DNA of 64,000 nt from NCBI RefSeq assembly GCF_030378065.1, contig NZ_JAUCGJ010000005.1, forward strand, positions 1 to 64,000. Reading direction: 5' to 3'. This document shows positions 6,892-62,390 of this stretch, piece after piece; within the stretch, counting starts at the first letter, position 1; each line of letters starts with the position of its first letter. The notes below the pieces were generated by a model. It had not been told where the DNA came from. It searched no databases and saw only the letters and a list, made by a program, of their open reading frames with translations. The position numbers and the translations under genes were made by a program. The stretch is from Candidatus Venteria ishoeyi. GTDB lineage: Bacteria > Pseudomonadota > Gammaproteobacteria > Beggiatoales > Beggiatoaceae.

Positions 6892-6937
6892 GGCTTTTCT
6901 ATAATTTTTGTGGGCAAGAAGCTAAACCCCGTTCACT

Positions 6938-7112
6938 AAGGAGTGAGGATAAAATAAATACAGAAACTGGGCGCAGGATTTTTATTCATTTTCAAGGCGC
7001 GAAAATAGGCGCATAGCAAGCTATGTAACTGCCTAAGTCCAAACAGGCGGAACGCAGAAAATGGAGAAAAAGACCAGCCAAGTTGCTGAAGTTATAAAAT
7101 TCTCGCTCCTAA
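6938..7112 (+). repeat. repeat family A, full-length copy 1 (MITE-like, 175 bp)
   Basis: The ends are imperfect inverted repeats: AAGGAGTGAGGAT on the left and ATTCTCGCTCCTAA on the right. The body is closely similar over its full length to 32491-32665, including an internal GCATAGCAAGCTATG block. It has no open frame and no transposase. It fills most of the 315-bp gap between the DUF945 gene and the RecQ fusion; the rest of the gap holds the terminator and nothing else recognisable. Confidence 0.85.
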
Positions 7113-10100: not shown

Positions 10101-12279
10101 CTTCGGCCTGTTGCATATCCAGCAAAACCTGTCCCTGAAAAACCTGGGTGCTGTTTTCATCGCGCTGCACAAAACCTGAACGCTCCAACCAGGCAATTGC
10201 AGTTTTCACCTTGGTATCCATCATGTGATCAGTATGCTCAAAACTCAGGCTTTCATTGCCAAGCTGTTGCATTAATTCTCCGCTGCTAATCACCACAAGA
10301 TTTTGATCCTGGCGACGGCTGCGGCGCAAGACCCGTAAAATTGTGCTGATGTCGCGTCGGGTCAGTTGTGATAAGGCGCTGAGCTTAAACTGCCGTTCAA
10401 TATCGGTTTCGTCATAAAGCAAAATACAGTCAGCCGTTTCACGATCACGTCCAGCGCGTCCGGCTTCCTGTAAATAATTTTCTAAAGAGCCGGGAATATC
10501 GGCGTGAATAACCAGACGCACATCATTCTTGTCAATGCCCATGCCAAAGGCATTAGTGGCACAAATTACCGGTAATTCACCAGCGATAAAAGCATTTTGT
10601 AATGTATGTTTTTCTGGAGGTTCCAGACCGGCATGAAAAGCCGCTGCATGAATTGGCTGTTCATGTTCCGCTAAAAATGTGGCGATTTCTTCTGTGCGTT
10701 TGCGGGTAGTGGCGTAAACAATGGCGCAACCACTTTCCAGATGGTGTAACAAGTCGTGGATTCGCGTATTTTTTTCCATGCTGCTGGTGGGTATGATTTG
10801 AAACGACAGATTATCCCGTTCTACGCCACCTGCAAATAAGGTCAAATCCTGCGCTAAAAACTGCTTGAAATGTCCCCTGATTTCGGCAATAACATCCTGC
10901 TTGGCAGTAGCGGTAAATGCTGCAACGGGTGGTATAGGCTGTTTGATTGTGGCGGAAAACTCTCGGATAAAACGTGCGGCATACCAATAATCCGTGCGGA
11001 AATCATGCCCCCATTTTGACAGGCAATGCGCCTCGTCAAATACCCAGCAAGCAATTTCACGTTGTTTGATGGTTTCGCGGAAACTATGATTGCGTAATTG
11101 TTCTGGTGATACATATAAAATCGCGGTATCCCCCAGGCGTATCCGCTCCAGCACCTGCCCGCGCTCTGGCGATGTTAATAAACCATTTAAGGCATCGGCA
11201 AACGGCGTACCGGTACGCCGTACCAGGCCATCCACCTGATCTTTCATCAGCGCCTGCAAAGGAGATATAACAATGGTCAGTACGCCGCGCCGTTGATAAT
11301 GTGCCAGCGCCGGAACTTGATAGCACAGAGACTTACCACCGCCAGTGGGCAGAATTGCCAATAAAGGCTGGCGCTGCATCCCTGCTTCCACTATGCGTTG
11401 CTGTAAGCTGCTGCCATCTTCAGCTTGCGGTATGGGGCGATACGCCTGAAAGCCAAAAAAATTCTGTAATTGTTTGACCGCATTGTGATGTTCATGACAA
11501 TAAGCACAATCCGCCTGCCCACAATTTGTTTCTCGCAAACTGTGCAGAATGTCAATGATTTCAGGGAACTGATAACGCACCCAGGGCGGCAGCACAGAAT
11601 TACCTTCCGCGACACTCAACCAGGCCAAGGCATAAGCCCAGGCTGGCGTAATCTTAAAATTTTGCAGCCATTGCGCCAAAGCATGAGCACATAAACGATC
11701 AGCATAACGCTTTTGTTGCAGCAGCGCTTTTGCGGTATTCAACTGGATTTCAGGGATACCCAATGCCTGAAAAAAATCTTGTATTCCTTGTTCCTGGGAA
11801 AAACAAAAACGATAAAATGCCAGTAAATCTCCCTGCCCGTTTTGCTTCATGCGTTCAAAGCTGTGCCATTCCTCAGTCAATAATTGTGCGGACAAACGTG
11901 CGTCAGCAACGGGATCATTAACTGTATCATGTACCAGTTTGTAATCTTTGACCAGATGGTGATAAGGAGTTTGCGGAAAGGCCAGCGGGGAAAGCAATAA
12001 GGTATCTAGCAAGGGTTGCTTGAGGATGAGCGCCTGTGGGTTGTGGCTTTGCAGCACGGGCATGTCATGGGCAACAATATTATGTCCCAGTACATAATCC
12101 GCAGTTGCTGCAAATTGTTCTAAATCAATTATCGCCTGTGCCAGATCAAAATGGCCTTGACGCATGAAAACCTGATCCCGGTAAACTGCACCAATTTTGA
12201 AAACAGTGTTTTCTGTATCGGTTTCCAAGTCCAACCAGAGACAGCGTTGTAAAAGCTCTGTTACCTGCATAACAGGCAT
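7126..12279 (-). CDS. giant exonuclease-RecQ-UvrD fusion helicase
   Basis: A single clean frame of 1717 residues. Residues about 1-135 form a DEDD-type 3'-5' exonuclease-like domain: WLDLETD (Exo I), GHNIVAHD (Exo II) and NDPVADA (Exo III, where the usual His is Asn). A small Cys/His cluster (CGQADCAYCHEHH) lies near 255. A RecQ-type superfamily 2 helicase follows, with Walker A TGGGKS near 310, DEAH near 415 and the QEAGRAGRD motif near 620. The C-terminal part is a superfamily 1 UvrD/Rep-type helicase with GPGSGKT near 1113, DEYQD near 1233 and YVAMTRARE near 1553. This suggests DNA repair or replication-fork processing by a nuclease with two motors. No clear ribosome site is seen; ATG codons at 12279 and 12270 are both possible. 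It is a single-gene unit. Confidence 0.88.
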   Translation of the reverse strand: MPVMQVTELLQRCLWLDLETDTENTVFKIGAVYRDQVFMRQGHFDLAQAIIDLEQFAATADYVLGHNIVAHDMPVLQSHNPQALILKQPLLDTLLLSPLAFPQTPYHHLVKDYKLVHDTVNDPVADARLSAQLLTEEWHSFERMKQNGQGDLLAFYRFCFSQEQGIQDFFQALGIPEIQLNTAKALLQQKRYADRLCAHALAQWLQNFKITPAWAYALAWLSVAEGNSVLPPWVRYQFPEIIDILHSLRETNCGQADCAYCHEHHNAVKQLQNFFGFQAYRPIPQAEDGSSLQQRIVEAGMQRQPLLAILPTGGGKSLCYQVPALAHYQRRGVLTIVISPLQALMKDQVDGLVRRTGTPFADALNGLLTSPERGQVLERIRLGDTAILYVSPEQLRNHSFRETIKQREIACWVFDEAHCLSKWGHDFRTDYWYAARFIREFSATIKQPIPPVAAFTATAKQDVIAEIRGHFKQFLAQDLTLFAGGVERDNLSFQIIPTSSMEKNTRIHDLLHHLESGCAIVYATTRKRTEEIATFLAEHEQPIHAAAFHAGLEPPEKHTLQNAFIAGELPVICATNAFGMGIDKNDVRLVIHADIPGSLENYLQEAGRAGRDRETADCILLYDETDIERQFKLSALSQLTRRDISTILRVLRRSRRQDQNLVVISSGELMQQLGNESLSFEHTDHMMDTKVKTAIAWLERSGFVQRDENSTQVFQGQVLLDMQQAEARLEKLHVSQDKKKQWLRLFSVLLNMDIDEGLTADALAATAQIEVAPETDTTPAKEAIRLLQDMAQQGFINQGLQLTAFFRAKGRNNAQQLLSQVCSLESAMISVLREQEPDAKEGDWMDLNLRQLSQHLLERDHAIHPQTLLQLLKSLSQDGKGLAGNRGSLSLHYVAQDFYKLHLQRDWNALEQTAKRRQAVAQVLVQHLQHKAQATGENQRKELLLSFTLDELQQALSNDLALQTQLKDSLAAAERGLLFLHEQGVLNLQQGLAIFRAAMHITIQPEAKGRRYNQSDYGALDHHYGERILQIHVMNEYARLAQKKIQDALNLVAAYFLLDRKNFIQRYFKHDKAMLKRATSAASYHQIVESLQHPVQTSIVAASAEQNMLILAGPGSGKTKTVVHRCAYLLRVLRVAAASILVLCFNRSAALSLRRRLRDLVGDDAFGVTIQTYHGMALRLCGRSMVSPGTKTDINFEQLIVQATALLRGDQDFPGLLGDELRERLLAGYAYILVDEYQDIDAQQYAFISALAGRTQDADTKLSILAVGDDDQNIYSFRGTHVSFIQRFQQDYQAEIYHLVDNYRSSDAIIQTANSLIQHNSKRMKQDHVIRINTQRQHEPAGGAWQQADSLGQGRVQIFSVSNAQQQALTLLNELQRLQALHPDVHKNREQHWQWQDCAVLAHTWETLMPIRALCEQQNIPVNWGLDSEKLPSPYRIREIATFLQQLDTQAKQQQSVTDWLVLYPANENNAWLHLIHNILLAWQNEVGNHVLPNQHLLAFCYDNLREWKREAHQHQGILLTTIHRAKGLEFKVLCIPDDDRFETSDESRRLYYVAMTRAREHLLLFQTQNRQHPHITLLDAGEHLYFRTQHNFVTQQFPPWRYEILSLKDIFLDFAGRQPPQANIHQVLQKIQTGDTLYPEKQGEHLVLFNENKVALAQLSRSGQQRWARHWSHIQQVRVLAVVLRHAEDCEAQYRRRLRCDAWLIPVVELVYHSSN

Positions 12280-12302
12280 TATACAAGTTCTGCGTTACAT
12301 AA

Positions 12303-12346
12303 ACAGTGATATAGCTTGCTATGTGCCTGTTTCACCTCATTCCTAA
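12303..12346 (-). repeat. repeat family A, degenerate internally deleted fragment
   Basis: Read on the minus strand it starts with TTAGGAATGAGG, the family A left end with one change, and jumps directly to the internal block ACAGGCACATAGCAAGC seen in both full copies. It sits just upstream of the RecQ fusion gene. Confidence 0.6.
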
Positions 12347-12487
12347 CACTTTCGTTGGAAATAAGCTAATACACAAATCGCAATGTCCACCATGCGAATG
12401 TTGCGTTGCCAAAATCTGTACTTTTGGATACCTGCCTATTAATAGAATATTTTTGTCGATTTCAAGGTGGATGGGGTTTATCACCTG

Positions 12488-21244: not shown

Positions 21245-21299
21245 TTAGGAGTGAGAATTTTCTAACACTCGAATTCGAGTGCTTATTCTCGCTCCTTAA
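21245..21299. repeat. palindromic family A derivative in the adk leader
   Basis: The ends TTAGGAGTGAGAAT and ATTCTCGCTCCTTAA match the family A termini. The interior is replaced by a 16-bp perfect palindrome (21266-21281, centred on GAATTC). The whole 55 bp can fold into one hairpin. It starts 18 bp upstream of the adk start codon, so it lies in the adk promoter or leader. Confidence 0.7.
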
Positions 21300-26825: not shown

Positions 26826-26948
26826 ACTACCTAAAGCAAAATTTAGCATGAGATGGAAGCAGTTTTCAGTAGATTAAGCACTGAAAGAAGCTGGCATCGA
26901 ACTTAGATTGAATAGATTTATCAGTATCACTGATATCAGGGGGTTAAA

Positions 26949-31881: not shown

Positions 31882-32499
31882 ATGAATTTACCGCATCTTT
31901 TCTATATTTACCTAATAATTTTTTTGCTTATTGGCTGTACAGCCTCACCGCCACCGCTGAAAATACTGGCTGAAGACGATGTAATTCTGGCTTTTGGCGA
32001 CAGTCTGACCTATGGCACAGGCGCGCAGCCTGAGGCCAGTTATCCCAGTTTACTGGAAAATCAGATTCAACGCCGGGTTATCAATGCCGGGGTTCCCGGC
32101 GAACGTAGTGGGCAGGGGCTGGCAAGATTGCCGGGATTACTGAAAAAGCACCAACCTAAACTGCTATTGTTGTGTCATGGAGGTAATGATTTTTTGCAGC
32201 ACAACAGTGATCAGCAGGTGGTTAAAAATTTACGCGCAATGATTCAATTGGCGCAGCAGCAAGGGATTGAAGTGGTGTTAATTGCCGTGCCTAAACCTGG
32301 TTTTTTTCTTTCTGGCGCAGATTTATACCATGACGTTGCCAGTGAATTTAAGATTCCGATACAACAAGACATTATTAGCCAGGTATTATCCAAGCCCCAC
32401 TTAAAAAGTGATCAAATTCATCCCAATGCGGAAGGTTATCAGCAACTGGCAGCGGCGCTTGCGGTTTTATTAAGCAAGGCTGGGGCGATTAAGGAGTGA
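31882..32499 (+). CDS. SGNH/GDSL esterase lipoprotein (TesA-like)
   Basis: A 205-residue protein starting with a lipoprotein signal peptide (hydrophobic core, then LIGC with the lipidated cysteine near residue 19). The SGNH blocks are clear: FGDSLTYG (nucleophile Ser), NAGVPG, HGGNDF and DQIHPN. It is a periplasmic esterase/thioesterase/lysophospholipase of the TesA/arylesterase group, anchored in the membrane here instead of soluble. The stop codon TGA and the last two codons lie in the left end of a family A repeat, so the C-terminus may have been reshaped by insertion. It diverges from argD; no strong ribosome site is visible. Confidence 0.88.
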   Translation: MNLPHLFYIYLIIFLLIGCTASPPPLKILAEDDVILAFGDSLTYGTGAQPEASYPSLLENQIQRRVINAGVPGERSGQGLARLPGLLKKHQPKLLLLCHGGNDFLQHNSDQQVVKNLRAMIQLAQQQGIEVVLIAVPKPGFFLSGADLYHDVASEFKIPIQQDIISQVLSKPHLKSDQIHPNAEGYQQLAAALAVLLSKAGAIKE

Positions 32500-32665
32500 G
32501 GATGAAATAAGTGCAGGAACTGGGCACAGGATTTTTATTCATTTTCAAGGCGTGAAAACAGGCGCATAGCAAGCTATGTAACTGCCTAAGTCCAAACAGG
32601 CACAACGCAGAAAATGGAGAAAAAGACCAGCCAAGTTTCTGAAGTTATAAAATTCTCACTCCTAA
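32491..32665 (+). repeat. repeat family A, full-length copy 2 (MITE-like, 175 bp)
   Basis: It is closely similar throughout to 6938-7112, with ends AAGGAGTGAGGAT and ATTCTCACTCCTAA. Its left end supplies the stop codon of the SGNH esterase gene. With the 157 bp that follow (nothing recognisable except a short inverted repeat, CCTTGA...TCAAGG at 32721-32743) it makes up the 323-bp gap before ispE. Confidence 0.88.
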
Positions 32666-56220: not shown

Positions 56221-56232
56221 GATTTCACCTTA

Positions 56233-56287
56233 AGGAGTGAGAATTTTATAACTTCAGAAACTGGACTTATTTTATCCTCACTCCTAA
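56233..56287 (-). repeat. repeat family A, internally deleted copy (55 bp)
   Basis: Read on the minus strand it joins the first 27 bp of a full family A element (AGGAGTGAGGATAAAATAA) directly to the last 27 bp (TTCTGAAGTTATAAAATTC then CACTCC). The ends are intact and the middle 120 bp are gone. It lies between pncB and the ygfB-like gene. Confidence 0.85.
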
Positions 56288-62195: not shown

Positions 62196-62205
62196 CAATT
62201 GTCAA

Positions 62206-62366
62206 GGAGGCTGTCCGAGAACACAAGACCTACTGCGGAAAAGCTGGATTTGGCCAGATTTCTCCCTTATTTTCGTTAAATAGAACCACTATTCGCCTCA
62301 AATAATGAAAAAATCTGATTCAAACCAGCTTCCCCTCGCTACGGCCTCTGTTCTCGGACAACCTCC
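62206..62366. repeat. repeat family C, complete copy (MITE-like, 161 bp)
   Basis: Terminal inverted repeats GGAGGCTGTCCGAGAACA and TGTTCTCGGACAACCTCC match at 17 of 18 positions. The left arm recurs in the 3' end of ispE (32843-32899) and the right arm at 17881-17957. There is no transposase gene. An ATG inside (62305) opens a frame into the downstream glycosylase gene, but this is not its true start. Confidence 0.85.
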
Positions 62367-62390
62367 TACTCATAAATTCCCGGAAACACC

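Follow-up and report, generated by a model that had tools for sequence, protein, structure and literature searches.

The window, meaning the whole 64,000-nucleotide stretch analysed here (contig NZ_JAUCGJ010000005.1, positions 1 to 64,000), comes from the draft assembly of Ca. Venteria ishoeyi (G000; 4.41 Mb, 115 contigs, 98.8% complete). It holds two full copies of a MITE, reduced and decayed relatives of these copies, and one member of a different MITE-like family, which were delimited as follows.

6937..6939 (left) and 7110..7112 (right), no strand: TAA target duplication of the copy at 6940-7109
6940..7109, + strand: full MITE copy, 170-bp class, terminal inverted repeats GGAGTGAGGAT.../CTCGCTCC
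6971..7078, + strand: hairpin core of this copy, 170-bp variant, one arm partly replaced (56.5 bits, E 2.6e-13)
12272..12355, - strand: decayed core fragment, 29 bp at 86-90% (17.3 bits, E 0.041, a weak match)
21248..21295, - strand: 48-bp ends-only copy with another palindrome inside, TTA at 21245-21247 and 21296-21298
32490..32492 (left) and 32663..32665 (right), no strand: TAA target duplication of the copy at 32493-32662
32493..32662, + strand: second full MITE copy, 170-bp class, 94% identical to 6940-7109
32524..32631, + strand: hairpin core of the second copy (63.6 bits, E 2.5e-15)
56234..56284, - strand: 51-bp derivative with both ends and the core deleted, TAA at 56231-56233 and 56285-56287
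62205..62367, - strand: member of a different MITE-like family, 163 bp, ends AGGAGGYTGTCCGAGAACA, fold z -6.9

A preliminary description of this DNA had pointed to similar copies with inverted ends at 6938-7112 and 32491-32665, joined ends with the centre deleted at 56233-56287, ends around a different palindrome at 21245-21299 and a decayed fragment at 12303-12346. All five places carry the sequence described, the last one being a piece of the core and the weakest of the five, whereas the edges shift by a few bases, to 6940-7109 and 32493-32662 for the two full copies. The ends-only copy lies in reverse orientation, upstream of an ORF.

With up to three mismatches allowed, the end pattern of the element was found at 519 places in the genome versus 2 for a reversed control pattern, and a 24-base core pattern at 236 places versus 0 for its control, so the repeat family cannot be ascribed to chance. 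A lack of further copies in the genome had been named beforehand as evidence against the MITE reading; the 236 places of the core pattern dispose of that objection. We analyzed element sizes in 859 kb, comprising the window and 40 stretches chosen partly around known matches, so that the density in this sample is biased. Of its 95 end pairs, 65 span 158-159 bp, 18 span 170-171 bp, nine are shorter and three longer; the element thus measures 158 or 170 bp, with inverted ends GGAGTGAG..., and core-bearing copies are far commoner than short ones (83 full-size versus 9 short pairs). The 175-bp copies that had been taken for the full form are indeed intact elements, but the 170-bp form is the minority one (18 versus 65). 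What distinguishes the two sizes is a segment of the core that has been replaced, CCTAAGTCCAAACAGGC standing in the place of about 5 bases; this arm segment disturbs the upper stem and can form a small hairpin alone. Two of the 65 members of the 158-159-bp class hold a more distant core. Among the three long pairs, one is a 158-bp MITE interrupted by an IS66-like element (590-aa ORF, judged by eye; L157:3361-5633), the two MITE halves overlapping by 8 bp; the other two, one spanning a P-type ATPase-like ORF (by eye) and one spanning unrelated sequence, look like chance pairings.

Insertion at a short target leaves its trace in the flanks. Identical 3-bp flanks were found in 117 of 129 distinct copies (57 TAA, 57 TTA, 2 TAT and 1 TCA); the search pattern held TWA on either side, which partly imposes the target preference and leaves the equality of the flanks free. 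Of 119 copies flanked by TWA at either end, 114 had equal flanks (P 3e-28 versus a coin toss). We also found an empty site: the copy at L160:9932-10095 lies inside a repeated intergenic sequence whose sister repeat, L167:9506-9628, lacks the element and is 100% identical to the two flanks joined together (123 bases), where TAA/TTA stands only once. Farther out, identity between the repeats is 98% in the 229-bp flank on the left and 80%, with 87 gap positions, on the right. For seven more copies there are candidate empty sites among paralogous sequences (74-87% identity), and in some of these the TWA is not preserved. Ten identical pairs occur among the 158-bp copies (n = 73), with a median nearest-neighbour identity of 98.7%, which we take as a sign of recent movement. 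The MITE label and the recent activity proposed in the preliminary description are both borne out by these data: the element is short, has no transposase gene, has terminal inverted repeats, is dispersed at high copy number and duplicates its target. An autonomous relative, which not every definition of a MITE requires, was not found within this genome.

A structured RNA or regulatory repeat that is immobile and was multiplied by recombination, not by transposition, would account for the stable folds (z -6.4 for the whole element at 6940-7109, and -10.3) and for the conserved structure, and related hairpins do lie between tRNA-Ile and tRNA-Ala genes elsewhere. Such a repeat does not predict exact 3-bp duplications, an empty site or core-less derivatives that have moved, and only 3 of 42 genomes of the family contain a match to the 24-base core pattern, at one place each beyond Ca. 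Venteria ishoeyi. We find this explanation scarcely credible; as the sole explanation of the copies in this genome it is, in our view, refuted by the empty site and the duplications.

The internal-deletion derivatives noted in the preliminary description are represented by six 51-bp copies that have one common deletion junction, lie at six loci and carry equal duplications in 6/6 cases. Six copies with the same junction, each with equal duplications, indicate that the core is dispensable in cis for transposition. One 51-bp copy (L157) stands in tandem with a longer copy.

Regarding the genomic setting, 0 of 92 elements were inside ORFs of at least 100 aa as delimited by a simple ORF caller, and two were inside doubtful ORFs of 85-90 aa. 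No orientation bias relative to neighbouring genes was detected for 76 elements (36 versus 33 at 3′ ends, 43 versus 40 at 5′ ends), and this speaks against a function in host messages that depends on the strand; a role as a host 3′ UTR hairpin was rejected on this ground. Five tandem arrays were found (L144:13777-14101, L155:7318-7644, L161:14472-14820, L162:7028-7352 and L163:7570-8055), in which 6/6 junctions are head-to-tail, with one 3-bp duplication common to the adjoining copies; neighbouring copies are 91-99% identical. Head-to-tail arrays with a single common duplication point to local dimer formation. In 7 of the 92 elements, the duplication coincides exactly with the stop codon (TAA) of a neighbouring ORF, so that insertion spared the gene (L134:17590, L144:2350, L148:317, L149:14046, L150:17294, L164:5669 and L167:2221). 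We make no claim of a preference for stop codons from this fraction, which we guess to be near that given by intergenic TWA density. Carriage by phages or plasmids was rejected: phage and plasmid collections gave no match to the 176-bp window copy, and viral contigs gave none to the end or core patterns.

We next consider which transposase could move the element. The proteins of two insertion sequences in relatives (L101 and L102) are ISAzo13 transposases (NF033519, 461 and 473 bits; cut-off 200). When 20 ends of 10 such insertion sequences were compared with the MITE, the best match averaged 18.7/24 versus 13.4 for shuffled ends, a mean to be read in the light of some of the insertion sequences being close kin and of two ends being off by one base (truly 21-22/24). 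For the insertion sequence L119, 14/18 bases of the left end and 15/18 of the right end agree with the MITE, and in genome G324 an ISAzo13 insertion sequence and a MITE both bear GGGCCGCGGAAAA. A further MITE in Ca. Venteria ishoeyi (L140:8530-8688, flanked by TAA left and right) has the GGTAACTYGC ends of another ISAzo13 subtype (L104; 21/24), and the ends of this subtype also occur in G622, a genome outside the class (24/24). ISfinder gives a 3-bp repeat for ISAzo13. In relatives' insertion-sequence copies with both ends readable, the 3-bp flanks were equal in 9 of 16, and 8 of 15 had equal TWA flanks; the seven copies with unequal flanks have TAA opposite TTA. Eight of the nine equal-flank copies have a stop-free transposase match, whereas those with unequal flanks are mostly broken or fragmentary, although L104 is unbroken. 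The insertion sequences resemble the MITE in their GGAAYGNG...ATAA ends and, in those 8 of 15 copies, in equal TWA flanks, and differ from it in encoding a transposase (NF033519, PF07592).

No such gene was found in the Ca. Venteria ishoeyi draft assembly, in which searches with PF07592, with a relative's ISAzo13 protein (E<=10; a search run with no positive control of its own) and with PF13358 (DDE_3) all gave no match. PF07592 had matches in 0 of 14 control genomes and in 12 of 42 genomes of the family (11 over the cut-off), which indicates that this search works within the Beggiatoaceae. The preliminary description had placed the transposase elsewhere; ISAzo13 elements with matching ends do exist in relatives, but none was found in this assembly. 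Among the 66 core-bearing genomes beyond Ca. Venteria ishoeyi, 37 were searched and 32 of these yielded no ISAzo13-family transposase. Since it was found neither here nor in those 32, dependence on this enzyme is indirect, and an ISAzo13-family transposase is a putative mobiliser, put forward on the likeness of the ends.

Bacterial MITEs usually belong to the IS630/Tc1-mariner group, which inserts at TA. A TA is contained in TWA, and ISAzo13 transposases do score weakly with the IS630 model, both in favour of a TA-inserting MITE of this group. It is nevertheless quite improbable: the duplication here is of 3 bp with an equal middle base, and no DDE_3 match was found in this genome, the control search having matched in 3 of 14 genomes. 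On these two grounds IS630 was rejected as the mobiliser.

We turn next to the inside of the element. Its core, the inner 96 nt, folds into an extended hairpin in which two internal loops are conserved, TCAAGGCG/AACGCAG and GGC/AAC. In a MAFFT alignment of ten cores with different ends (eight from Ca. Venteria ishoeyi and two from genome G014; a single gap column, one base wide), 14 of the 31 predicted pairs were compensated, meaning that in at least one sequence both sides had changed and the pair was kept. In an alignment of 43 cores, which was fitted to the model and hence leans towards it, 29 of 31 pairs had changed on both sides, 95.5% of cells paired and 234 cells had changed, versus 48 for shuffled alignments and 34-58 for slid ones. 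Conservation is highest at TCAAGGCG opposite AACGCAGA and at GGCGCATA...CTATG.AAC. In the 24 rows of alignment A4 that come from outside this genome, unpaired columns were conserved at 0.69 versus 0.66 for paired ones. Palindromes yield compensated pairs cheaply, and these two values are close; the argument rests on the two internal loops. Rfam gave no match for the window at the gathering score, nor for four further stretches (L132, L140, L089 and L170) at E<=0.5.

The core reaches well beyond this genome. A covariance model built from the ten cores found it at E<=0.01 in 67 of 369 relatives' genomes, Ca. Venteria ishoeyi included; at most 11 candidates were scored per genome, and copy numbers are accordingly lower bounds. 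A broader model found it at E<=1e-4 in 90 of 398 genomes of the phylum, again including Ca. Venteria ishoeyi, of which 61 are outside the class by kinship, these being mostly from one family (f203) and many of them draft assemblies. Among the named carriers are Ca. Accumulibacter, Methylobacter, a Bathymodiolus methanotrophic symbiont, Chromatiaceae, Sedimenticola and Nitrosomonas, as well as two delta-proteobacterial assemblies, possibly products of faulty binning. A contig scan with a pattern that avoids the main Ca. Venteria ishoeyi form gave 72 loci. Stringent criteria were applied to the ends around cores outside Ca. Venteria ishoeyi, namely identical TAA or TTA flanks, ends of the form GG...CC, 8/14 inverted bases and 140-185 bp in total. 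Of 107 loci, five were dropped (core near a contig end or not located); 29 of the remaining 102, in 19 of 59 listed genomes, passed, versus 0 of 722 displaced control windows. The 73 loci that failed comprise decayed copies, two mislocated cores (L358 and L360, where the pattern placed the core outside the hairpin; both counted as failures) and truly different ends, such as TATACTTCGC in G288 and AGCAAGCCYCAG in G077. The preliminary description had named, as evidence that would count against it, copies conserved at the same loci in distant relatives as a structured RNA. The loci differ, but the folded centre is indeed conserved, between other ends, and such a module common to distant relatives is not explained by the MITE label alone.

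A rival account of this module is a passive palindrome, the old inside of one MITE lineage that is alike by descent and transfer and functionless, its stems being compensated by template-switch repair. Movement proceeds without the core, the elements have no orientation bias, and paired and unpaired columns are similarly conserved overall, as expected from such a palindrome. It fits less well with the loops TCAAGGC/AACGCAG, which are largely fixed while both sides of the stems next to them differ from genus to genus, or with the lengths of the 29 passing loci, of which 27 measure 155-162 bp despite different ends (one 169 and one 179) in a test that allowed 140-185. We regard a functionless core as somewhat unlikely.

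Taken with the evidence above, we consider it probable that the repeat is a MITE mobilised in trans by an ISAzo13-family transposase and carrying a conserved structured module. The mobile part of this best explanation is directly observed, in the ends, the duplication, the empty site, the identical copies at different loci and the moved derivatives. As for the mechanism, an ISAzo13-family DDE transposase supplied in trans would recognise the GGA(A/G)YGAG...ATAA ends and insert the MITE at TAA/TTA, making the 3-bp duplication. Across many Pseudomonadota, the core stems have been rewritten with compensation and the ends have been exchanged or have diverged. The module may be kept because the folded strand, as RNA or single-stranded DNA, serves the element; our best guess is that a conserved host factor binds or cuts it, so that insertions become tolerable or copy number is raised.

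MITEs are usually viewed as evolutionary dead ends, derived by deletion from a single insertion sequence. In the present case conservation lies in the interior and variation in the ends, across families and classes, and this suggests a lineage defined by its non-coding core, with ends that can be replaced. Extending this, one could envisage phylum-wide modular mobile elements with one folded core and a near-fixed total length, which swap their ends to ride different transposases, whose core functions in folded form, as RNA or as a single strand, and which have this core in common with ERIC and with ribosomal-spacer hairpins; we offer this generalisation as speculative and doubtful. Core-model hairpins were also observed between tRNA-Ile and tRNA-Ala genes in other genomes of the class (L375-L377, L388-L390 and L219; L375:251-347, L376:251-346, L388:251-342, L390:251-344 and L219:1501-1614), a placement that resembles ribosomal-operon spacers. 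These hairpins may be insertions, kin of the core, products of convergence or the source of the core.

Correia elements of Neisseria occur between genes in hundreds of copies, internally deleted ones among them, with a TA duplication and other ends. They resemble the MITE in copy number, deletion forms and the hairpin, and differ from it in duplication and ends. Their transcripts contain the hairpin. Processing of such transcripts by RNase III is described in PMC10969869. ERIC/RU-1 of Enterobacteriaceae and Vibrionaceae are described as palindromic intergenic repeats in PMC10969869 and PMC2759123. The MITE could be a member of an ERIC superfamily of enterobacterial repeats with the hairpin in common: by eye, ERIC carries AAGGCG...AACGCAG, possibly the internal loop of the core, at matching places on either side of a stem that contains a GA/GA loop, and relatives of the core with GA/GA loops exist (L375 and L226). 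The ends of ERIC/RU-1 differ from those of the MITE, and three covariance models score 9.6, 12.3 and 10.6 bits, only in the apical part of one ERIC copy and below significance. We treat membership as a lead, less likely than not. In Ca. Thiomargarita nelsonii, another member of the Beggiatoaceae, MITEs are abundant as in Ca. Venteria ishoeyi, and its genome also lists PFAM07592 transposases; the hupL MITE detailed there, with 10-bp direct and 19-bp inverted repeats, is of another type, and no probable parent for it was identified in ISfinder by the authors (PMC4853749). In the literature searched, which included few subscription papers, we recognised no description or name for the core or for ISAzo13-type MITEs, and the available parts of PMC10969869, PMC2759123 and PMC9208149 contain neither an ISAzo13-MITE link nor such a core. 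The system makes testable an old question, namely why some short ERIC-like bacterial repeats persist and multiply with no transposase of their own, and the covariance model can be used to annotate unnamed repeats in many Proteobacteria genomes.

Other repeats were observed alongside the MITE. The AGGAGGYTGTCCGAGAACA-ended family at 62205-62367 contains a related hairpin core at 62250-62323 (25.7 bits, E 1.7e-4), and members of the same 163-bp size are present at L160:7403-7565 and L166:16079-16241. Positions 26837-26914 of the window belong to another dispersed palindromic repeat, of the TTCGATGTAAGC type, which serves elsewhere in the Ca. Venteria ishoeyi genome as a landing site for the MITE.
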